NCBI GenBank assembly: GCA_020848035.1 | Contig: JADLAX010000007.1 | Span: 1-64,000 of the forward strand | Source: Anaerolineae bacterium | GTDB lineage: Bacteria > Chloroflexota > Anaerolineae > Promineifilales > Promineifilaceae | Length of the DNA stretch: 64,000 bases | Direction of reading: 5' to 3' | In this document: piece after piece, positions 5,607 to 60,298 of the stretch | Numbering within the stretch: position 1 is the stretch's first letter | Layout: each line of letters begins with the position of its first letter | Made by a program: the position numbers and the translations under genes | The notes under the pieces: generated by a model | Told to the model about the DNA's origin: nothing | Seen by the model: the letters and a program-made list of their open reading frames with translations, nothing else | The model's database searches: none

Positions 5607-5629
5607 CTAATTTTTGCTGATGTTTGATG

Positions 5630-5658
5630 GCCGGGGGCTTCTGGACGAGGCCCCCGGC
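5630..5658 (+). terminator. GC hairpin after the capsid gene
   Basis: The arms GCCGGGGGC and GCCCCCGGC pair perfectly around an 11-base loop. There is no T-run, so it is more likely an attenuator or 3'-end stabiliser than a full terminator. Confidence 0.5.
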
Positions 5659-5673
5659 TATTGGGGAGAAACC

Positions 5674-7662
5674 GTGAACGATCTGACTATCATTATTCCA
5701 TTTTTCAACGGCCATGACACGATCGGCCCTTTGTTGGCCGGGCTGCCGCAGCAGCTCCCGGTGATCATTGTGGACGATTTAAGCGAACGGCCGTTAACCC
5801 CTGACGATTTGCCCAAGAAACGGCCGTCTGATGTGCGCATCATTCGGCTTGATGAGAAAGGCTATTTCTCCGGCGCAGTCAATTTCGGCATTTTGGCGTG
5901 CCGGACGGACGTGCTGGTGTTGAACCAGGATGTGACGCTAGAGGGCACCGCCTGGCTAAACGTGCTTTCTGAAAAGCACCAATTTTCCCTGATGGGCGAT
6001 GGTGTTTTTGGGCACCCGGCCTGGCCTGAAGGGTACGTGCAGGGGACATTCATGTTCATGCGCCGGGATGCGCTTGAGCAGGTTGGACTGCTGAATGCGG
6101 AGCAGTATCCGCTGTGGGGGGCTACCTGTGAATGGCAGCTGCGGGCATGCCGCCAGGGATTTTATGCCTACCCCATGAAGGAAATCCCCGGCTTCACGCA
6201 CAAGCGTGGCCAGCAGCCATACGGCAGCGGCATTCGCCAGCTGCTGCAGATGGAGCCAGAAAAGCGGGAGTGGCTCATCCAGACGCCGCCAACGGTGAGC
6301 GTGATTGTGAGCTGCTACAACTACGGCCGTTACCTGCCAGACCTGATCGCCTCGCTCATTGGTGGGGAGAGCAGCCTGGGCACAATGAAACCTCAGACCT
6401 TCCAGTCGTTTGAGGTGGTTATCGTCGACGATGCGAGCCAGGACGAGACGCCCGCCATTATCCGCTCATTGATAGACCCGTGGAAAGGTATCCGGTCCAT
6501 TCGGCTACCTGCGGCTGTTCACCCAGATGGCATGCCGAACAACGGCACGCCGTTGGCCAACAACGCAGGGATTGAAGCCAGTTACGGCCGTTACATCAGC
6601 ATCCTCGGTGGGGATGACATGATGGAGCACACGCGGCTGGGGCGGATGGTGCAGGCGCTGGAGGCTAACCCCCACTCAGTAATTTACGACGACATGCAGA
6701 TGTTTGCGCACGGCCGTCTGGGCCAGGTCATGCAGATGCGGGATTACAGCTTCGATGACCTGCTGCAGCGCAATCATATTCACGCGGGCATCATGTTCCC
6801 GCGCCAGGCATATGTAGACACCGGCGGCTACCCCGTTGCTATGCGGTACGGCCGTGAGGATTGGGCGTTCAACGTCGCCCTGGGCGTCCATGGGTATTGT
6901 GGCGTCCACCTGGATTATCCAGGCTATTTGTATCGAAGAGAGGAGCAAGGGCGCTCGACGCGGAACACAAACCCCTCGTGGATGAGCCGCTTTGCGGAGC
7001 AGATGCGTCGTTTGTTCCCCAGGATTTATGCAGGAGAAAGACCTATGGCTTGTTGTGGTCAGCGAAGCGTCTCTCTGCCAGCAGGCAGCGGGGCAAAAGG
7101 AATCGACATGAACAGTATTAACAACCTGGTTGGGCAGAAGGGCATGACCCTTGTTGAGTACCACGGCAGTAATGCGGGCACCCAGACATGGCACAGCCCA
7201 ATCACTAATGCCCGCTACGTTTTTGGCGGTAAGCGCAAGGTGGGCTTCGTGGACAATCGCGATTTGCAGTGGATTACCACGACGTTCTGGGAAGGTAATA
7301 AGCCTCTCTTCCGCAAAGCTCCACAACAGCCATCCGCGGCCGAGCTGGTGGTTGACCCCGGCGAAGCTGGCGTAGTTAATCCCCCTGCCCCTGGTGGCCC
7401 TGTAATCGGTGATGCCGATTTGAATCCGCCTGCTGCGGAAACGGCCGTTCCCGATGCGCCGGTAGAGGTTGTGGAGACGGCCGTGGTTGCGGCACCGTTT
7501 GACCCGAAGGCGCTGAACATCACGGACCTGAAGAAGCAGTTGGGCAGCCAGCCTTACAGCGTGGCCCAGCTGAGTGCGGTTCTGGCGGTGGAAAATGCCG
7601 ATTCGCCCCGTTCTGGCGCAGTGAGTGCGATTGAAGCGGCGATTGCTGCCGCTGGGGGCTAA
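5674..7662 (+). CDS. Tandem family-2 glycosyltransferase fused to a head-type protein
   Basis: 662 residues from the GTG at 5674, preceded by GGGGAGAAACC; an earlier TTG lies in the hairpin. Domain 1 (from TIIIPFFN) and domain 2 (from VSVIVSCYNYGRYLP, with VIVDDASQDET and GGDDMME) are GT-A folds. After about residue 455 the frame runs on without a stop into a different module: a small SH3-like head protein (VEYHGSNAGTQTWHSP, then FGGKRKVGFVD), an Ala/Pro linker and a short helical end. The second module has its own good starts: ATG 7045 after AGGAG and ATG 7108 after AAAGGAA. Two products, or one fusion that decorates the capsid with sugar, are both possible. Confidence 0.7.
   Translation: MNDLTIIIPFFNGHDTIGPLLAGLPQQLPVIIVDDLSERPLTPDDLPKKRPSDVRIIRLDEKGYFSGAVNFGILACRTDVLVLNQDVTLEGTAWLNVLSEKHQFSLMGDGVFGHPAWPEGYVQGTFMFMRRDALEQVGLLNAEQYPLWGATCEWQLRACRQGFYAYPMKEIPGFTHKRGQQPYGSGIRQLLQMEPEKREWLIQTPPTVSVIVSCYNYGRYLPDLIASLIGGESSLGTMKPQTFQSFEVVIVDDASQDETPAIIRSLIDPWKGIRSIRLPAAVHPDGMPNNGTPLANNAGIEASYGRYISILGGDDMMEHTRLGRMVQALEANPHSVIYDDMQMFAHGRLGQVMQMRDYSFDDLLQRNHIHAGIMFPRQAYVDTGGYPVAMRYGREDWAFNVALGVHGYCGVHLDYPGYLYRREEQGRSTRNTNPSWMSRFAEQMRRLFPRIYAGERPMACCGQRSVSLPAGSGAKGIDMNSINNLVGQKGMTLVEYHGSNAGTQTWHSPITNARYVFGGKRKVGFVDNRDLQWITTTFWEGNKPLFRKAPQQPSAAELVVDPGEAGVVNPPAPGGPVIGDADLNPPAAETAVPDAPVEVVETAVVAAPFDPKALNITDLKKQLGSQPYSVAQLSAVLAVENADSPRSGAVSAIEAAIAAAGG
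7108..7662 (+). CDS. Possible separate head protein from an internal start
   Basis: Same frame as the glycosyltransferase. The ATG at 7108 follows AAAGGAA, and another at 7045 follows AGGAGA. The product would be about 184 residues with an N-terminal beta domain (MTLVEYHGS, YVFGGKRKVGFVDNRD) like small proteins found between capsid and connector genes. Its C-terminus, LNITDLKKQLGSQPYSVAQL, resembles a HeH/Rho-N-like helical motif. Confidence 0.45.
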   Translation: MNSINNLVGQKGMTLVEYHGSNAGTQTWHSPITNARYVFGGKRKVGFVDNRDLQWITTTFWEGNKPLFRKAPQQPSAAELVVDPGEAGVVNPPAPGGPVIGDADLNPPAAETAVPDAPVEVVETAVVAAPFDPKALNITDLKKQLGSQPYSVAQLSAVLAVENADSPRSGAVSAIEAAIAAAGG

Positions 7663-26754: not shown

Positions 26755-26766
26755 GGAGGTTAGACC
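26755..26766 (+). promoter_or_regulatory. GGAGGTTAGACC leader element
   Basis: Perfect copy; the ATG follows immediately at 26767. It is fully complementary to the candidate sRNA at 32904. Confidence 0.8.
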
Positions 26767-31620: not shown

Positions 31621-31632
31621 GGAGGTTAGACC
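31621..31632 (+). promoter_or_regulatory. GGAGGTTAGACC leader element
   Basis: Perfect copy, one base before the parA ATG at 31634. Confidence 0.8.
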
Positions 31633-31633
31633 A

Positions 31634-32509
31634 ATGACAACTGTAATTAGTGTGGAAAACCGAAAGGGTGGGGTAGGCAAGACAACCACGGCCGTCACGT
31701 TAGCAGTTCGCACTGCCCAAAAGATTGCACCGGAAAAGGTGCTGCTTATTTGTGTGGACCCCCAAGGCGATGCGGCTCGCGCGTTGGGGCTGGACCCGGG
31801 CGGACGCTGTTTGTCCCAGCTGCTGCGCGAAGAAGCATCATATGGTGATGTTATCATGTCGGCGGATCTGGCGGCGAACGGCGGGCCATCTCGGCCGAAT
31901 CTGTACTACTTGCCGGCATCGAATAGGCTCTTTGCTGCGCTGACCACGATTCAGGAAGATGTGGTGGCCATGCGGGAGATCGCTAACAAGATGACCCCGC
32001 AGGAACGCAAGCGAAAAGGGTTAGACGAAATTGACGACCTAACTGCCCGGGTACTCAACATCCTGCAACCACTCAAGTCAACTAAAAATGGCCCCAAGTA
32101 CATTTTTATCGACTGCCCACCATCGCTTGGGCCAATGCAAATGGCAATCCACAAATTTGCTGATTACGCGATTGTTCCTGTTGAGCCAGGCGATCAGGAC
32201 TTAGCCATGACTGTTCAGCACACGACGGAAATCGCCGAGGACTTAAAACATGGTGCCAAGATGAAGCTGTTGGCGGTTTTGCCCACCAATGTCCAGCCGC
32301 AACTTAATCTACACACCGCCATGTTAAGCCAGATACGGAAGGTTTATGAGCCGCAGCGGGCATTGGTAACATACATCCCGCGCCGGACGGCCATTCAGCA
32401 GGGGCCGTCTCTGGGTGGGCTAGTGATTTTCGATCATGAGCCAGACAGTGACGCAGCAAAAGCATACGATGTTTTGTCCGAACGGGTGTTGGCCGTAGGA
32501 GGAAGATAA
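31634..32509 (+). CDS. parA: ParA-family partition ATPase
   Basis: 291 residues from the ATG at 31634; upstream in-frame codons lie in the promoter. The deviant Walker A KGGVGKTTT is at residues ~11-19, with IFIDCPPSLGPMQ (Walker B) and VPVEPGDQDLAMTVQ further on. ParA proteins segregate low-copy plasmids with a centromere-binding partner, here the next gene two bases downstream. Its presence supports plasmid-like maintenance of the prophage. Translation starts at a GGAGGTTAGACC element and so is a predicted sRNA target. Confidence 0.9.
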   Translation: MTTVISVENRKGGVGKTTTAVTLAVRTAQKIAPEKVLLICVDPQGDAARALGLDPGGRCLSQLLREEASYGDVIMSADLAANGGPSRPNLYYLPASNRLFAALTTIQEDVVAMREIANKMTPQERKRKGLDEIDDLTARVLNILQPLKSTKNGPKYIFIDCPPSLGPMQMAIHKFADYAIVPVEPGDQDLAMTVQHTTEIAEDLKHGAKMKLLAVLPTNVQPQLNLHTAMLSQIRKVYEPQRALVTYIPRRTAIQQGPSLGGLVIFDHEPDSDAAKAYDVLSERVLAVGGR

Positions 32510-32869: not shown

Positions 32870-32969
32870 TTGATCACCGTTTGCGGTTGTGCTACACTGT
32901 GGACGGTCTAACCTCCGCTGAAAAGTGGAAGTTGGGTAGGGGCATCCGCGAGGGTGCCCTTACTTTTCT
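32870..32969 (+). ncRNA. Candidate anti-Shine-Dalgarno small RNA
   Basis: The promoter is TTGATC (32870-32875), 17 bases, TACACT (32893-32898), so transcription starts near 32904. The RNA then begins GGTCTAACCTCC (32905-32916), the exact reverse complement of the GGAGGTTAGACC element at eight ribosome-binding sites (seven exact, one with a single mismatch). A GAAA-loop hairpin partly covers the CCTCC and leaves GGTCTA free as a toehold. An intrinsic terminator follows: GGGCATCC, GCGA loop, GGGTGCCC, then a T-rich run ending near 32969. Predicted length is about 66 nt. It should block initiation at its targets in trans. No reading frame or minus-strand gene explains this sequence. Confidence 0.75.
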
Positions 32970-33032: not shown

Positions 33033-33104
33033 GACTCTTTCATGTGCAGGGGTCGGATCCTGCAAATGACGAAAGCACCGCTGTGCGACAGCGGTGCTTT
33101 TTGT
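33033..33104 (+). ncRNA. Candidate small RNA 3, two hairpins
   Basis: Downstream of the four-half-site promoter. Hairpin 1 is TGCAGG/CCTGCA; hairpin 2 is AAAGCACCGCTG/CAGCGGTGCTTT followed by T5, a strong terminator. About 72 nt, no reading frame. Its promoter places it under the same regulator as the other GTTKCA sites. Confidence 0.6.
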
Positions 33105-33136
33105 TTGCCTGTTTGGGCAAAAAGGCCAGATTGCCC

Positions 33137-33325
33137 GCAATGGCACCGTAAAGGCACCTATTTCGCGCGGGCGCATTGAACCTATCTATTCATACTAGCC
33201 CCCGCACTCCCGCCCGTCCGCTCGCAAAGGCGCACCCAAGGCTATTTGGGGGCGCTTTTGTTTTTACCCCTACCGCACACAGGATTCGGTAAACGGCCGT
33301 TTCCCGGCTCAATTTGGCGTATTTC
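33137..33325 (+). repeat. Dispersed terminator-like repeat, copy B
   Basis: Same block order as copy A: a GCAATGGCACCGTAAAGGCAC start, CGCGCGGGCG, CTATCTATTCATACTAG, a GCGC..GCGC hairpin with T-run, then CGCACACAGG and AAACGGCCGTTT. It lies in non-coding DNA between small RNA 3 and the next gene. Confidence 0.75.
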
Positions 33326-34448: not shown

Positions 34449-34460
34449 GGAGGTTAGACC
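34449..34460 (+). promoter_or_regulatory. GGAGGTTAGACC leader element
   Basis: Perfect copy, two bases before the ATG at 34463. Confidence 0.8.
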
Positions 34461-34884: not shown

Positions 34885-34896
34885 AGAGGTTAGACC
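34885..34896 (+). promoter_or_regulatory. AGAGGTTAGACC leader element (one mismatch)
   Basis: 11 of 12 positions match; the ATG is at 34902. Confidence 0.7.
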
Positions 34897-39697: not shown

Positions 39698-40590
39698 AAA
39701 CCAAAAAACTTGACCCACGAGACCTGGCCCGCTGTGCCCTCACCAGCCTACGGCTAGCACGAATCCATCAGAATTTCTTCAGCGATGCGCTGCCTGATCT
39801 GAAATGGAAGCCCGTCGATGAAAAAAGCACCGCAAAGGCGGCTTCCAAGATACTTGGACACGTGGGCACTCTGTTTCCTCTTTGGGAAATGTGGGATGAC
39901 GATTACGCAATGGCCGAGGATTTTTCACAGTATATCCCTATCACCGTATTTGGCGTCGACGATGAATATATTTCAGACATGATGGGTAGCCATATATGGC
40001 ATGACCTGGAGGCATATCTATTTGCCTTTGATGGCGGGTTTGGGGGAGGGGAAGAAGAAGAGGCCGGCGAAGAACTCGCTTGCCAGTTTGATATTCGCCA
40101 GCCAGCGCCCATCTGGAAGATTTTCCTCAAGCTGGAAATGATGCTCATCGAAGGTGATGAGCGGCTCCAGCAGTACAGGGTGCAATGGCGCAACATGGCG
40201 CGACGCTTCCGCTATTTGACGGCCAATACGGAGCACCAGTTTCTCGATCGAGACATCGAAACGCAGAGTTACTCTGGTCAGATACCCTGGGAAAAGGAAT
40301 GGATTGATGCCCTGACAGAGCAATGGGCAGAAGCGGAGCCATACCTGGATTCCACATGGGCATTTGTAAATTGGGTGATAGAAAGCCCAGGTAACTTCGA
40401 CCTGGCAATTGCCGTGGTGCGCCTGGTGTGTGACGAAGTGGCTGCTGACGAGCAGATGGCCAATGTCAGCTTGAATGAAGTACACACTGAAGATCACAAA
40501 GACCTCCTGACAATTCAGCAACGTTTGAACGCAATGGAATGGGACGAAAATGACAAACCAGAAAACGAAAAAGAAACCGAAGCTAGTTAG
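39694..40590 (+). CDS. PRTRC-cassette protein of unknown function
   Basis: 298 residues from the ATG at 39694. Helical, acidic, with a Gly/Glu-rich stretch (GGFGGGEEEEAGEE) near the middle and many Trp. By position it could take the place of PRTRC protein F, but I see no diagnostic motif. It overlaps the E2-like gene by 41 bases. Confidence 0.5.
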   Translation: MKTKKLDPRDLARCALTSLRLARIHQNFFSDALPDLKWKPVDEKSTAKAASKILGHVGTLFPLWEMWDDDYAMAEDFSQYIPITVFGVDDEYISDMMGSHIWHDLEAYLFAFDGGFGGGEEEEAGEELACQFDIRQPAPIWKIFLKLEMMLIEGDERLQQYRVQWRNMARRFRYLTANTEHQFLDRDIETQSYSGQIPWEKEWIDALTEQWAEAEPYLDSTWAFVNWVIESPGNFDLAIAVVRLVCDEVAADEQMANVSLNEVHTEDHKDLLTIQQRLNAMEWDENDKPENEKETEAS

Positions 40591-43733: not shown

Positions 43734-44672
43734 ATGCATATAGAGAAAACCCGTTTGTGTGGTGAATCGGCAATGGCCAATTATGATTGGCCGTTACTGC
43801 GGCGATTGTGGGAAGAGGCGACCAGTAAGCCGCGCCCCAGCTGGTACTTGCCGGAGCTGGTGACCATGTGCTTTGTGGACCAGTGCGACGAGGAAGTGTC
43901 GGCCAAGTTGGCCGCAGCGCTGGGGATGGCTCAATTGGCAATCAAGTTAATCGACGACTTGCTTGATGCTGAGCCAGGTGGGGTACAGGAACAGGCCAGC
44001 GCTGGGGAGGTGGCCAACATTGCCTGTGCCTTTCAGGCTTTTTCTTCCGACCTGGCGCTTACGTCGTTTCATCCAAATACACCTTTTGGTAAGCCTGCTG
44101 CAGCTATCATTGCCCGGCTACTGCATGAGACGGCCTTTGGCCAAAAGCTAGACTCATCTGAGGCGTTTACAGAGGAAGAATATTGGGTGACCGTGCAGTG
44201 GAAATCTACGCCATTCTACAGGCACGCTTTTGCCTTGGGCGCGCTGCTGGCGCGGCATCATGGGGCCACTGTCGATGTGCAGTTGATTCGGTCACTGGGG
44301 ACGATTTTTGGCGAGATGGTGCAGGTGATTGACGACATGGTGGATGTAATGGCTACACCGGCGACCGGCGATTGGCATCGCAGCAACAATCTACTCATTC
44401 TGTTTGCAGAATTGACCGATGAGCACGGCCGTTTCGCAGAGCTAAAAACGGCAGTTCAGGGCGGTGCCGACCCCGAAACAGCCCAGCAGTATTTAATCGA
44501 CTGTGGGGCAGTGACTTACTGTGAGCACGTTGTGAAGGGGAAGTATGAAAGGGCGATGGAGCTTCTGGCTATTTTGAAGATTGAAGATAGTCCGTTGCGG
44601 AAATTATTTGACAGCCACTTGAGCGCCGTCTTAGTACCAACCAAAGGGCCAGACAGCATTCGCCTCGTTTAA
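43734..44672 (+). CDS. Polyprenyl synthase, ComQ-like
   Basis: 312 residues from the ATG at 43734 after GGGAGAGG. The all-helical isoprenoid synthase fold has both aspartate-rich motifs: IDDLLDAEPG (D74, D75, D78) and VIDDMVDVM (D200, D201, D204). In ComQXPA systems such a protein prenylates a Trp of the ComX peptide. Here a candidate peptide gene overlaps its 3' end on the other strand, and a kinase and regulator follow. A housekeeping prenyl-chain role is less likely in a phage. Confidence 0.75.
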   Translation: MHIEKTRLCGESAMANYDWPLLRRLWEEATSKPRPSWYLPELVTMCFVDQCDEEVSAKLAAALGMAQLAIKLIDDLLDAEPGGVQEQASAGEVANIACAFQAFSSDLALTSFHPNTPFGKPAAAIIARLLHETAFGQKLDSSEAFTEEEYWVTVQWKSTPFYRHAFALGALLARHHGATVDVQLIRSLGTIFGEMVQVIDDMVDVMATPATGDWHRSNNLLILFAELTDEHGRFAELKTAVQGGADPETAQQYLIDCGAVTYCEHVVKGKYERAMELLAILKIEDSPLRKLFDSHLSAVLVPTKGPDSIRLV

Positions 44673-44804: not shown

Positions 44805-47114
44805 ATGATGCTGCATTATAGCATAAGACGCCTTTTAATTGCCTTAGTCCTTTTGTCTTTTGTGGTTGCCGCCTATTTTTCGGCGCGCTACATCATTACG
44901 CCAGCGGTTATGATGACCGCCACGGACAAGGGGTTGGTGATTTACGATCAGCCCGAGTGTGATGTGTGCAGCCTTGAAATAGGCGATATCGTGGTGGCAA
45001 TTGAGGGGGTAGAATATGAGCCGGGTGTTTTTCTGGCTCCATTTGCGGGCTTTACAAATGGTGACGTGGTGAACATGTCGGTGCTGCGGGGCGGGGAGCG
45101 GGTGGAGGCGCAGCTGCGCATCCCTGCGTCTGACGGGTCTGAGGTGTTTGTAAAGCTGCTGGTCTTTGTATTCTGGATGCCGTTTTGGCTGAGCGCTGCC
45201 TGGCTGGCGTATTTTGCGCCGTTGGACAAGCGGGCCATTACGATGGCGGCTATGTTTTCGGTGTATGCCGTCTGGGTGGTGGCCGGGCTGGTGTCGTCGG
45301 CGTTTGTGTCGGCCGCTTCGGTAGTAGTGCACGTGGCTACCTGGATGCTGGTGCCACTGACGGTACAGGTGCATTGGGTATCGCCCAGCCCACTGCACTG
45401 GCGGGTGCCTCGATGGACGGCCGTGGGTTTCTACGGGGTGTTTGCTGTGCTGGTAGTAGCGGAGCTGTTTCAGATGGTGCCTCGCCAGCTGTTCAGCATT
45501 GGCACGGTTTTGATGGTGCTGGCTCCATTTGTGCTGCTGCCACTACACCGGGATAAGGCGCGCCTGAACGCACGCCGCATGATGTTGATGGGGGTGGTTA
45601 CATTGACGGTGCCCCTGGTTGCCTGGCTGCTGATTTCTTTCAATACAGAAACCAGCAGCAGCGCCTCGTCGGTAAATCTGATGCTGGTGGGGGGGTCGGC
45701 GCTGCTGGCGCTGCCGGTGTTTCCGCTGCTTTACGTATATGCCAATTACCGCCAGTATTTTTCGGCCAAAATGGAGCAGCGGTCATGGCGGGTGTTGGTG
45801 TTGTTGGTTTATATCTCCCTAATTCTGGTGGCGATTACAGCGGCAATCACCGTGGCCGGGCGGTCGCTGTCTATAAACGATCAGGCGATCAACTTGAGCC
45901 TGATTACCTCGACGATTATTGGGGTGGCCGTGGCGCTGGGAACAAACAGTGCGCAGAGCTGGATGAAGCGCTTTACCTACGGCGATTTTGAATCGCGCAT
46001 TAACCTGGCTTCGGTTCGTTTTTCGACGCAGATGACGGAGCTGACGGCTCCGGGCGACTTGGAAGCATTTCTGGCAGCCGAAACGCATGCCCAGCTGGGC
46101 GTGACAGCCTCGGCGCTGTACCTGGCCAGCCCAGAGCTGGTGTTGAAATATGTGGTGGGCGCGGCAGAGGGCGCGACAAAAGCCCCAGAGACGATCAGTC
46201 CTAATAACGACATTGTGGCGGGGTTGGGGAAGTATCGGCCGTATGTGGCGGGCAGCAGCCTGCCCTGGGCCAGGCTGTGCGTTCCTCTGTTGGTAGAGAA
46301 AGACCTGGTGGGGGTATGGTTATTGGGGCCACGGGAGAACGATGATTTTTATGCAGCCGGGCACATCCAGCAGCTGCAAGCGCTGGGCAACCAGGTAGCA
46401 GCGGTGGTGGAAATGCGGCGGCAGCAGCGCGAGATTGAGCGGCAGGTGGCCACGTTACTGGTGAAGGAAAAGGAGGCGGCGTTGGGGCGGGTAGTCACCT
46501 CTGTGGCCCACCAGTTCCGCAATCCGCTGCAAGTTATTATGGGGGCGCTGGAAGCGGACAATGATTACCAAAAGCCGGAAAACGAGTGGCTGGCATTGGC
46601 CTACCAGCGGGCGGAGCGGCTGTCTGACGTAGTTCGTTCTATTCAACGGTTTGCCACGATTAATGACCCAGGAAACGAAGCGGCGCAGCGGATTGATGTG
46701 CAGGAGGCGGTTAAAGAGGCGATGCTGCTCATTGAGCACCGGTTGAAAGAACAGGGGATTACGCTAGCTCTGGAAGATGGCGAACCGTGTTTTGTGATGA
46801 TGGGGGCGTCTGAGCTGACGCAGGCAGTTCTGAACTTGTTGGAGAATGCCAGCGACGCACAAGAAGGGGGCTGCATCCATATTGAGGTGAGCCAACGCAA
46901 TGGCACTGTTGTGCTGCGGGTGCGCGATGAGGGAGCGGGGATTGCTGACGGTGACATTGAGCGGGTATTTGAGCCGTTGTTCACGACAAAAAACGGGCTC
47001 GGTTTGGGATTGTGGATTACGCGTAGTATTATTGAACGAAATCGCGGGACAATAAGCGCCCAGAGTGCTTTGGGGAAAGGTTCTATTTTTACAATAACAC
47101 TCCCAGCAGTGTAA
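44805..47114 (+). CDS. Membrane histidine kinase, ComP-like
   Basis: 769 residues. Signal-anchor helix, then an outer PDZ-like loop (residues ~40-105, LEIGDIVVAIEGVEYEPG), then eight or so membrane helices to residue ~390. A GAF-like region (residues ~395-540) leads to HisKA (VAHQFRNPLQV, phospho-His569) and HATPase_c (NLLENASDA, RDEGAGIADG, NGLGLGLWI). The sensor half matches the layout of Bacillus ComP (PDZ-like loop plus multiple helices), although the kinase core is HisKA rather than HisKA_3. Only GGA precedes the ATGATG start. Confidence 0.75.
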   Translation: MMLHYSIRRLLIALVLLSFVVAAYFSARYIITPAVMMTATDKGLVIYDQPECDVCSLEIGDIVVAIEGVEYEPGVFLAPFAGFTNGDVVNMSVLRGGERVEAQLRIPASDGSEVFVKLLVFVFWMPFWLSAAWLAYFAPLDKRAITMAAMFSVYAVWVVAGLVSSAFVSAASVVVHVATWMLVPLTVQVHWVSPSPLHWRVPRWTAVGFYGVFAVLVVAELFQMVPRQLFSIGTVLMVLAPFVLLPLHRDKARLNARRMMLMGVVTLTVPLVAWLLISFNTETSSSASSVNLMLVGGSALLALPVFPLLYVYANYRQYFSAKMEQRSWRVLVLLVYISLILVAITAAITVAGRSLSINDQAINLSLITSTIIGVAVALGTNSAQSWMKRFTYGDFESRINLASVRFSTQMTELTAPGDLEAFLAAETHAQLGVTASALYLASPELVLKYVVGAAEGATKAPETISPNNDIVAGLGKYRPYVAGSSLPWARLCVPLLVEKDLVGVWLLGPRENDDFYAAGHIQQLQALGNQVAAVVEMRRQQREIERQVATLLVKEKEAALGRVVTSVAHQFRNPLQVIMGALEADNDYQKPENEWLALAYQRAERLSDVVRSIQRFATINDPGNEAAQRIDVQEAVKEAMLLIEHRLKEQGITLALEDGEPCFVMMGASELTQAVLNLLENASDAQEGGCIHIEVSQRNGTVVLRVRDEGAGIADGDIERVFEPLFTTKNGLGLGLWITRSIIERNRGTISAQSALGKGSIFTITLPAV

Positions 47115-49748: not shown

Positions 49749-49760
49749 GGAGGTTAGACC
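49749..49760 (+). promoter_or_regulatory. GGAGGTTAGACC leader element
   Basis: Perfect copy, six bases before the ATG at 49767. Confidence 0.8.
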
Positions 49761-50510: not shown

Positions 50511-50894
50511 ATGAGCAAGCGTGGTGGGCATCGGGAGAATGCCCAACGGCCGCCGCTGTACGGGGACACAATGGATAAGTATATCCTGCGGCTGCCTGCG
50601 GAAATGATTGTCTTTTTAGACAGCACCGGCGAGCGAGATCGGGCGGCCAACTTGCGCAACCTGTTGGCATGGGCGGCGGCGCTGCCAGAGCCTGATTTGC
50701 TGCATGATCCAGGTACAGGCGATGAACAGCTGGGGCGGCGCTACGCGCTGCGTGATGAGGACCTGGCCACGGCCGTGCGCCTGGGGGATGGCAACCGAAC
50801 GGCCGGGGCGCGGCGGGTTATCTTCACGGCGATGCGTCGGCAAGTGGACTTGGTGGCGTTGCAAGAGGATTCTTTTGCCGCAAAGGCACCGTAA
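50511..50894 (+). CDS. Hypothetical protein ending in a dispersed repeat
   Basis: 127 residues. KYILRLPAEMIVFLDSTG could be a ribbon-helix-helix start, then helices. The last codons (AAKAP) come from repeat copy C, as in the gene at 2197. Unknown. Confidence 0.5.
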   Translation: MSKRGGHRENAQRPPLYGDTMDKYILRLPAEMIVFLDSTGERDRAANLRNLLAWAAALPEPDLLHDPGTGDEQLGRRYALRDEDLATAVRLGDGNRTAGARRVIFTAMRRQVDLVALQEDSFAAKAP

Positions 50895-51062
50895 AGGCAC
50901 GTATTTCGCGCGGGCGTTCTGCCCATAACCAAACATACTGGCCCCCGAGCTTTCGCAAGCGGGCTTGCAAAGGCACTCCCAAAGCAATTTGGAAGTGCCT
51001 TTTTCTTTTCCCCTATGGCACACAGGTTAGAGCAAACGGCCGTTTCTGGGCGCATTCTCGCA
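50880..51062 (+). repeat. Dispersed terminator-like repeat, copy C
   Basis: A GCAAAGGCACCGTAAAGGCAC start, CGCGCGGGCG, then GGCACTCCCAAA/TTTGGAAGTGCC hairpin with T5, CACACAGG and AAACGGCCGTTT. The rest of 51062-51184 holds a repeated TTCAACCTGTC and no gene. Confidence 0.75.
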
Positions 51063-51184
51063 GCCTGCTTCTTCAACCTGTCTACCAACCCGTTCAACCT
51101 GTCAACTTTGGATATTCTCGCCTTCCCGTTGGCGTATTGCTCGCGTTAGGATCAACTCAAGTAAATAACTTTTCACCTGTAAAC

Positions 51185-51196
51185 GGAGGTTAGACC
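51185..51196 (+). promoter_or_regulatory. GGAGGTTAGACC leader element
   Basis: Perfect copy with a C before it (13 bases complementary to the sRNA); ATG at 51199. Confidence 0.8.
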
Positions 51197-51198
51197 AA

Positions 51199-51525
51199 AT
51201 GTCAGTTTACTTGATTTGTTTCCGCGCGCCTGATGGCGAGAAGGCCCACTATAAACATGCCGGTCACTACATCGGCTTCGCCGATCGCGGCGAGACGCCC
51301 CAGGCCAGCGTCGAAGCGCGTCTGCGCGAACATCGGGCTGGCTACGGCGCAGCGCTGACCCGGGCGGCCGTCGACAGCGGCCTGGACCTAGTTGTTTCCC
51401 GCATCTGGGAAGACGGTACAAAAGATGATGAGTGGCGCCTGCGCTGCCGGTCCGAGAATCCCCGTCTTTGCCCATTTTGCAATCCAGAAGCCTATCACCT
51501 GGCGCAGGGGGTGGGCCATGACTAA
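51199..51525 (+). CDS. GIY-YIG-like protein
   Basis: 108 residues. YLICFRAPDGEKAHYKHAGHYIGFAD and RLREHRAGYGAALTRAA resemble compact GIY-YIG-type nuclease folds; NPRLCPFCNPEAY is a zinc-like end. The catalytic Arg and Glu are plausible but unproven. It overlaps radC by 8 bases. Confidence 0.55.
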   Translation: MSVYLICFRAPDGEKAHYKHAGHYIGFADRGETPQASVEARLREHRAGYGAALTRAAVDSGLDLVVSRIWEDGTKDDEWRLRCRSENPRLCPFCNPEAYHLAQGVGHD

Positions 51526-52295: not shown

Positions 52296-52307
52296 GGAGG
52301 TTAGACC
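52296..52307 (+). promoter_or_regulatory. GGAGGTTAGACC leader element
   Basis: Perfect copy with a C before it; ATG at 52313. Confidence 0.8.
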
Positions 52308-53068: not shown

Positions 53069-54208
53069 ATGAAATTTAGTACGAATCGCGAATCCCTGAT
53101 TGATGTTTTGAAGAAGTTACGGCCGTTTGTGTCCACGCGCAGCCTGCTGCCTGTTTTGCAGAATGTGCGGGTGGAAGCATTTGAAGACGGCCGGGTGAAT
53201 CTGACGGTCACCAACCTGGAAGTGATAGGGGCCGCAATGGCTGGTGCAACGGTGGACGCACCTGGGGCCACCACGCTGCCTTACACGCTCCTGGTGAGCG
53301 TGCTGGGCGAAATGATGGGGGAGCAGGTGTCGTTTTCGCCTGACGAGGGTGAGCGCACCCTGATCCAGTCTGATTTGTCTGAAAGCTCTCTGGCGGGCCT
53401 TCCCGCAGCGGAGTTCCCCAAGACGGATTTCGTGATTACCGACGCTTCATTTTCCTTCCCTGTGACGGCGGCATGGCTGAAGCAGCGCTTCAACCAGGTT
53501 CTGTTTAGTGCGGCCGGTGACGATACGCGACCGGTTCTGTGTACGGTGCTGTTCCGGGTGGTTGGTGGCAAGTTAACAATGGCGGCTACCGATGGATTCC
53601 GCCTTACGCTGATTGATGCCCCAGAAGCCTTTGGTGAAACGGCCGTTCCCAACTTTGAAGTGATCTTCCCCGCAGCGCAAATGGCGGGAATCTTGCAGAT
53701 GCTCGAAGGCGATGTAACGGTAACCGTTAACTGCAAGCGGGTGAAGTTTGAGACGGCGACGGCCACGGCCGTGCTGCAAGTGCCTGACTATGACTACCCT
53801 GATTTCAGCCCCATCATTCCAACGCGTGTGCTGACCATGTTTACTTTGGAGCGTGCGCGGGCCATCAGTGCGGCGCGGTTGGCGATGGTGATTGCTCATC
53901 ACAACGACGGTCCCGAGGCGATCACGCTGGAGCATGAGCCGGTGGATGGGGAGGCGGGGTGGTTGGCCATGTCTTCGGTGATTGCGTCGGTGGGGGCAAA
54001 CGAGGCCCGCGCCACGCTCATTTCGGCTGAGGGCAACCAGTTTTCAACGATGGGGGTGAATGGGGGGTATCTGCTGGATGCGCTAACTCATGCGCCTGAT
54101 GGTGATATCCAAATCCGTACCACCAATCCGGTAGAGCCAATTGTTATTCGGTCGGTTAATGATGCGACGTGGCAGTGCATCATTATGCCGCTCCATTTGA
54201 AACGTTAG
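53069..54208 (+). CDS. dnaN: DNA polymerase III beta subunit (sliding clamp)
   Basis: 379 residues, the normal length. Start MKFSTNRESLIDVLKKLRPF; middle LCTVLFRVVGGKLTMAATDG; end WQCIIMPLHLKR, all clamp hallmarks. It should encircle DNA and raise the processivity of a polymerase encoded by the host or outside the window. GGAGG precedes the ATG, and a very strong terminator follows. Confidence 0.9.
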   Translation: MKFSTNRESLIDVLKKLRPFVSTRSLLPVLQNVRVEAFEDGRVNLTVTNLEVIGAAMAGATVDAPGATTLPYTLLVSVLGEMMGEQVSFSPDEGERTLIQSDLSESSLAGLPAAEFPKTDFVITDASFSFPVTAAWLKQRFNQVLFSAAGDDTRPVLCTVLFRVVGGKLTMAATDGFRLTLIDAPEAFGETAVPNFEVIFPAAQMAGILQMLEGDVTVTVNCKRVKFETATATAVLQVPDYDYPDFSPIIPTRVLTMFTLERARAISAARLAMVIAHHNDGPEAITLEHEPVDGEAGWLAMSSVIASVGANEARATLISAEGNQFSTMGVNGGYLLDALTHAPDGDIQIRTTNPVEPIVIRSVNDATWQCIIMPLHLKR

Positions 54209-54268: not shown

Positions 54269-54280
54269 GGAGGTTAGACC
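54269..54280 (+). promoter_or_regulatory. GGAGGTTAGACC leader element
   Basis: Perfect copy with a C before it; ATG at 54286. It lies just after the dnaN terminator. Confidence 0.8.
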
Positions 54281-59691: not shown

Positions 59692-60298
59692 GGATGTGAA
59701 ACGGCCGTATGCTCAGGCGCTGCCGTTGGCCCAGGAGGTTGTGGGCAAGTTACGGCCGTACTGTCACCGCATCGAAATTGCGGGCAGCCTGCGGCGGCAG
59801 CGGCCGGAGGTTGGAGACCTTGAGATCGTGGCCATCCCCAAGTATCAGGTTGGGCTATTGGGGCCAGATTATAAGCAGCCCAGCGCCCTGGACCTGTTCT
59901 TTGAGGGGCATGAAGTCCCGCTGATCATCGGTGGGAAGATGTACAAGAAAGGGCAGCGGGAGCGGCAGAAGCGGTTTCGGTATCGCGGTTACCAGGTTGA
60001 CTTGTTCCTGGCGGTGCCTGAGAACTGGGGGCTGATTTATTGGCTGCGCACGGGCAGCGAGCCGTTTGGGAAGTGGTGTGTGACGTTGAAAGGGTGGGGT
60101 GGGGCGATGCCACCCGGTATGCAGAGTAAGGACGGGTTCCTTTGGCGGAATGGTGAGCAGATAAACACGCCAGAGGAAGTGGATTTCTTCAATGAGTTGG
60201 GGTTGCCGTTTATTCCGGTGGAGATGCGGGATAACGGCCGTTGGCATGAGTTTCTGGAAACAGTGCAGCAAGGCGTGGTTGATGATGGTGGAGTTTAG
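59684..60298 (+). CDS. PolX-like nucleotidyltransferase
   Basis: 204 residues from the ATG at 59684. CHRIEIAGSLRRQRPEVGDL followed by EIVAIP is the GS...GDxE motif of family-X polymerases, and YQVDLFLAVPENWG supplies the third acidic residue and the strand after it. Only palm and thumb parts are present (short for PolX), as in some phage enzymes. It may fill repair gaps. Confidence 0.75.
   Translation: MSKDVKRPYAQALPLAQEVVGKLRPYCHRIEIAGSLRRQRPEVGDLEIVAIPKYQVGLLGPDYKQPSALDLFFEGHEVPLIIGGKMYKKGQRERQKRFRYRGYQVDLFLAVPENWGLIYWLRTGSEPFGKWCVTLKGWGGAMPPGMQSKDGFLWRNGEQINTPEEVDFFNELGLPFIPVEMRDNGRWHEFLETVQQGVVDDGGV

Follow-up and report, generated by a model that had tools for sequence, protein, structure and literature searches.

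A phage genome that closes to a circle of 101,449 bp carries one predicted small RNA whose first 12 bases are the exact complement of a 12-base sequence, GGAGGTTAGACC, that lies on the ribosome-binding site of sixteen of its own genes (14 exact copies and two with one mismatch), suggesting that a single RNA could switch that whole gene set off at the level of protein synthesis. The stretch of DNA analysed here (the window, 64,000 nucleotides) comprises bases 1-64000 of contig C7 (101,576 bp) of a 7.65-Mb metagenome-assembled genome with an estimated contamination of 7.3%. C7 begins and ends with the same 127 bases, so it closes to a circle. It encodes a tail tape-measure protein, a gpA-type terminase, a Gp37-like tail protein, an SLT/M23 protein, a P22-type antirepressor, ParA, two ParB-like proteins, a DnaA-N protein, a DnaN sliding clamp and a DarB-like antirestriction protein, and we read it as a phage-plasmid. 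Relatives identified by terminase are mostly Chloroflexota MAG contigs. The element also carries unusual cargo (Table) and a strikingly abundant short repeat, with the palindrome ACGGCCGT occurring 151 times on C7 and AACGGCCGTTT 21 times.

The observation that prompted this analysis, a 12-base motif shared by ribosome-binding sites and matched by a complementary small-RNA locus, held up and proved larger than first described. The original prediction listed eight sites, which is only half of the set because eight more lie on the circular contig outside the window. Its statement that four sites extend the match to 13 bases is right, as a C precedes the motif at 26755, 51185, 52296 and 54269. 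Within the window, ten sites with up to two mismatches were found against 3.1 expected, and none of 100 shuffles reached ten. When the best mismatch count was taken over all predicted plus-strand starts, the distribution was sharply bimodal, with 16 starts at 0-1 mismatch, none at 2 and the rest at 3-9. All 16 copies lie on one strand, their start codons follow 0-6 nt later, and 15 of the 16 start codons are ATG. All are outside the structural block and follow a gap between genes, although the gene list comes from a crude caller of our own, so that exact gene counts are approximate. The downstream proteins are mostly unrelated, the exception being the 90704/91133 pair, and the sequence around the motif is not shared beyond an A that follows it at 16 of 16 sites. 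In 395 other genomes of the class the 12-mer stays at chance level.

The reverse complement of the motif occurs once on C7, against an expectation of 0.014 copies. A scan that knew nothing of the motif, looking for a promoter with a terminator inside intergenic space, returned about ten units on C7, one of which has its predicted transcription start exactly at the first base of the complement, at 32905 rather than at 32904 as originally predicted. The promoter and the GNRA-loop terminator proposed there were both recovered. Taken together, we estimate the chance of the match to be of order 1e-6. The predicted 65-nt RNA folds into two hairpins at -36.3 kcal/mol, with no shuffle as stable (z = -6.2), and the two ORFs that overlap it score as non-coding, which argues against a protein-coding explanation of the locus. 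The best-matching promoters before target genes share the 17-nt spacer of the small-RNA promoter and often have a TACAAT -10, and the small RNA's own -10 sequence also lies upstream of ParA in a more distant 109-kb relative (G043:C62). Directly downstream is a second candidate small RNA, for which no recurrent complementarity was found and whose modelled pairing with the first RNA is negligible.

Table. Coordinates of the predicted small RNA, its matching leaders and other features (window and C7 numbering coincide).
Position	Strand	Feature	Details
32870-32875	+	-35-like hexamer of the predicted small-RNA promoter	TTGATC; 17 nt from the -10; 8 of 12 matches together with the -10
32893-32898	+	-10-like hexamer	TACACT
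32905-32969	+	predicted 65-nt small RNA	5' anti-leader segment, hairpin 1, terminator hairpin 2, U-rich tail
32905-32916	+	anti-leader segment	GGTCTAACCTCC, reverse complement of GGAGGTTAGACC
32908-32935	+	hairpin 1	GAAA loop; pairs most of the anti-leader segment with an imperfect leader mimic (GGAAGUUGG)
32936-32969	+	predicted intrinsic terminator	12-bp stem, GCGA (GNRA) loop, UUUUCU tail
26755-26766	+	leader motif	before 26767 (311 aa, no family found)
31621-31632	+	leader motif	before ParA (31634-32509); promoter TTGACA-17-TACAAT upstream
34449-34460	+	leader motif	before 34463 (131 aa); promoter TTTACA-17-TACAAT
34885-34896	+	leader motif, one mismatch (AGAGGTTAGACC)	before 34902 (62 aa)
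49749-49760	+	leader motif	before 49767 (79 aa)
51185-51196	+	leader motif	before 51199 (108 aa, GIY-YIG-like by eye only)
52296-52307	+	leader motif	before 52313 (235 aa, just upstream of the DnaN gene at 53069); promoter TTTACA-17-TACAAT
54269-54280	+	leader motif	before 54286 (123 aa)
67562		leader motif, outside the window	DarB-like antirestriction protein
78138		leader motif, outside the window	PC4-like
79795		leader motif, outside the window	ParB-like (79808; by inspection and by homology to a relative)
80908		leader motif, outside the window
82321		leader motif, outside the window
90691		leader motif, outside the window
91120		leader motif, outside the window
92031		leader motif, outside the window
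33033-33105	+	second candidate small RNA	TTGCGC-16-TATATT, two hairpins, strong terminator at 33072-33100, about -37 kcal/mol
33130-33302, 2380-2472, 50875-51045; 77497-77664, 92723-92896, partial at 81678 and 81770		family of intergenic repeats	about 170 bp, 76-86% identical, most ending in ACGGCCGTTT; also on contigs C72 and L125 (see text)
51097-51147, 67501, 90590-90660, 91019-91089, 92002		upstream elements shared by a subset of leader genes	ACCTGTCAA direct repeats and TAGGATCAA, probably promoter/operator
5620-7662, 43734-44672, 44862-47114		cargo genes	glycosyltransferase, polyprenyl-synthase-like protein and a histidine kinase

The placement of the motif provides a likely indication of the level at which it acts. 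Its distance to the start codon is fixed within 6 nt whereas its distance from the clearly recognisable promoters varies from 23 to 55 nt, which argues for translation rather than transcription, and because the RNA would cover GGAGG itself, the expected sign is repression. The upstream elements shared by a subset of leader genes suggest a transcriptional layer on top of the leader motif. In the predicted fold, nucleotides 1-3 (GGU) of the RNA are free, but nucleotides 4-8 and 10-12 of the anti-leader segment are paired inside hairpin 1, so that most of the seed is locked in the RNA's own structure and is not an open 5' end, a point that the original prediction missed. The 12-bp leader duplex (-21.4 kcal/mol) is much stronger than hairpin 1 (-12.7 kcal/mol), so a full leader can displace it in the model. 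The modelled net gain averages -12.3 kcal/mol over the 16 leaders and -2.1 over 96 other starts, although the leader at 34885 pairs only weakly (-3.9). In random contexts the whole RNA gains -9.8 with a full leader, -2.2 with GGAGG alone and -3.9 with TTAGACC alone. The hairpin therefore looks like a filter that admits only the 12-nt address, but this is an inference from energies and the kinetics may differ. No Hfq was detected in the host genome and no CsrA in the whole assembly, so pairing would have to work without Hfq, and CsrA is not a candidate for reading the motif.

Leaders, but not the RNA, were recovered in relatives of the element. A 9.9-kb contig from another MAG (L125), with a terminase 94% identical and DNA 86-92% identical to C7 over the main blocks, keeps two leaders, including the one-mismatch variant GGAGATTAGACC at the same gene; this single contig lacks the RNA region, and no small-RNA region was recovered from its genome bin. 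A host-chromosome island (contig C72 of genome G000, about 64960-71730, and contig C703 of genome G003, L109) is 99.9% identical in two genomes of the same genus and carries decayed homologues of C7 genes, with an in-frame TGA and an apparent frameshift, which ties the phage to this host. The island retains two exact GGAGGTTAGACC leaders although its matching stretches are only about 80% identical to C7, and it is possibly a remnant of an older related phage. The more distant relative G043:C62 (terminase 48% identical) has neither motif nor RNA and uses plain AAGGAG-type sites before several homologous genes. ParA relatives in the host family showed no recurrent start motif on their contigs. 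Searches for relatives of the RNA in phages and plasmids gave only short chance hits, the one in Rhodococcus (E 0.01) reading like part of a coding gene with no leaders nearby, and a pattern search of IMG/VR gave hits at chance level only and none for the RNA's hairpin pattern. No Rfam family matched in the window at gathering score. The RNA is known from one element only.

Based on these results, we consider the most likely explanation, with a probability of about 0.72, to be that the locus encodes a trans-acting antisense RNA of about 65 nt that represses translation of a dedicated regulon of a phage-plasmid infecting a Chloroflexota host. What the sequence itself establishes is that sixteen mostly unrelated non-structural genes carry the same 12-mer over the Shine-Dalgarno site, and that the only other copy is its complement, at the predicted 5' end of a non-coding, highly structured unit with a predicted promoter and terminator. 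The remainder is inferred, including transcription of the RNA, repression and co-regulation of its targets. According to this view, the 5' GGU acts as a toehold on the ACC of the leader, and full complementarity then displaces hairpin 1 to give a 12-13 bp duplex over GGAGG that blocks ribosome binding. An ordinary GGAGG would be unable to open hairpin 1, so that host and other phage mRNAs would be spared. The outcome would be coordinated silencing of partition, anti-restriction and other small accessory genes, released when the RNA is not made or is outnumbered by its targets. The original interpretation, that one RNA turns off partition, recombination and other early genes together, is thus supported in part. 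An antisense RNA acting on many ribosome-binding sites remains the best-supported reading, and partition genes are in the set (ParA and the ParB-like protein at 79808), but the case for recombination is thin, resting on a small protein at 51199 that is GIY-YIG-like by eye only, and what is shown of the genes is that they are non-structural, their being early remaining a prediction.

Some of the data fit this model less well. The pairing of eight of the twelve seed positions inside hairpin 1 should slow pairing, and the host shows no Hfq to help. Moreover, the RNA has no pairing base for the A that follows the motif at all 16 sites, so part of the leader's conservation is not explained by the RNA, and G043:C62 manages without either component.

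Of the alternatives, the one that survives best, though we regard it as unlikely, is that a phage- or host-encoded RNA-binding protein recognises GGAGGUUAGACC on the mRNAs as a translational repressor or activator. The complement at 32905 would then be secondary, for instance a relic of an inverted leader, or an RNA whose hairpin 3' arm (GGAAGUUGG) imitates the leader and titrates the protein. Conservation of the motif beyond what pairing with the RNA needs, the leader mimic in hairpin 1 and the many leader genes that encode unannotated small proteins are consistent with this idea. However, the complement is perfect over exactly the shared 12 bases and sits at the predicted transcription start, the mimic is imperfect, and the best-known candidate, CsrA, is absent from the host. 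Less likely still, the motif may be an extended Shine-Dalgarno site that gives phage mRNAs stronger ribosome recruitment, because GGAGGU and GACC can both pair with the 16S tail (GGAUCACCUCC), in which case the RNA, whose 5' end GGUCUAACCUCC resembles that tail, would be incidental or merely compete. The genome's 16S carries the standard tail, and modelled pairing is -13.1 kcal/mol with a longer 16S tail against -10.5 with a shorter stretch of it. Nevertheless, the bases between the two pairing blocks are bulged in that model yet are as conserved as the rest, a 12-bp pairing to the small RNA is far stronger, and structural genes, which need the most translation, lack the motif. It is improbable that the motif is a DNA element (an operator, or a sequence at the transcription start) placed at start codons as a by-product of short leaders: several leaders do share upstream promoter sequences (TTCCCG-17/18-TAGGAT and ACCTGTCAA repeats), but the promoter distance varies while the start-codon distance does not, the motif always contains the Shine-Dalgarno site, and its orientation is fixed with the gene. 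Finally, a coincidental complement is the least likely possibility, since the expectation of 0.014 for one copy somewhere in the element, which alone is not negligible, falls to order 1e-6 given its exact placement at the start of a promoter-hairpin-terminator unit.

The closest parallel we found is the Start-Associated Sequence (SAS) of cluster K mycobacteriophages, GGGATAGGAGCCC (Pope et al. 2011, PMC3203893), a 12-13 bp asymmetric sequence that contains the Shine-Dalgarno core and is present in 11-19 copies, in one orientation, within a few nt of mostly ATG start codons of non-structural genes of unrelated families, after intergenic gaps. Its authors left open whether an RNA or a protein reads it. 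The present motif differs from the SAS consensus and occurs in a different host, so it is SAS-like in behaviour but not a member. About half of SAS sites have extended upstream inverted repeats (ESAS); here a subset of leaders shares the TAGGATCAA and ACCTGTCAA elements, which are not shown to be of the same kind. We found no convincing complementary RNA in the cluster K phages Anaya, Pixie or ZoeJ: Pixie has no reversed site, that of ZoeJ is the start of a divergent gene, and the single one of Anaya lies in a conserved gap and is kept in some close relatives but not in more distant ones. A conserved, often unannotated intergenic stretch (CGCTTTTAGACT..CAGCACAACTGTGCCC..GGCCCCGG..GGGGCCGTTTC) at Anaya 59739-59849 (about 39740-39850 of the record L105) and in 176 other mycobacteriophage records looks like a small non-coding RNA with a terminator in cluster K mycobacteriophages. 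The present element thus behaves like an SAS system with a candidate reader.

Among phage antisense RNAs, c4 of the phage-plasmids P1 and P7 and sar of P22 pair at a ribosome-binding site to block translation of one antirepressor mRNA (reviewed in PMC12197685), and c4 is described as likely exposing its complementary sequences in loops, whereas here the seed is in a 5' stem and the 16 targets are dispersed. The prophages of P1 and P7 are plasmids. Multi-target trans-encoded sRNAs with anti-Shine-Dalgarno seeds, such as S. aureus RNAIII, likewise pair with many mRNAs over the Shine-Dalgarno site, but their targets share short, imperfect, scattered complementarity, while here all targets carry an essentially identical 12-mer, as if evolved as address labels. 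The sRNAs VpdS of VP882 and PreS of lambda are also encoded by temperate phages, but both are described as Hfq-binding; PreS targets a host gene, VpdS is described acting on host sRNAs and on host and phage mRNA levels, and neither is described with a shared leader motif (PMC12197685).

A tentative possibility, which we consider less likely than not, is that the RNA serves as a master switch, with sixteen transcription units fitted with the same 12-nt address and a self-locked antisense RNA silencing them together to hold the plasmid-prophage state, hairpin 1 being a built-in specificity filter. The same logic, with an RNA not yet found, would explain the SAS of mycobacteriophages. Phage antisense RNAs described so far mostly act on one or a few mRNAs. 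A phage that has put an identical RNA-readable address on sixteen genes, and encodes one matching RNA, would be a post-transcriptional counterpart of a repressor-operator network, in a host without detectable Hfq. It also gives a concrete, testable answer, namely a complementary RNA, to the question open since 2011 of what reads start-associated motifs in phage genomes, and the hairpin-locked seed suggests a simple way in which an anti-Shine-Dalgarno RNA is made specific.
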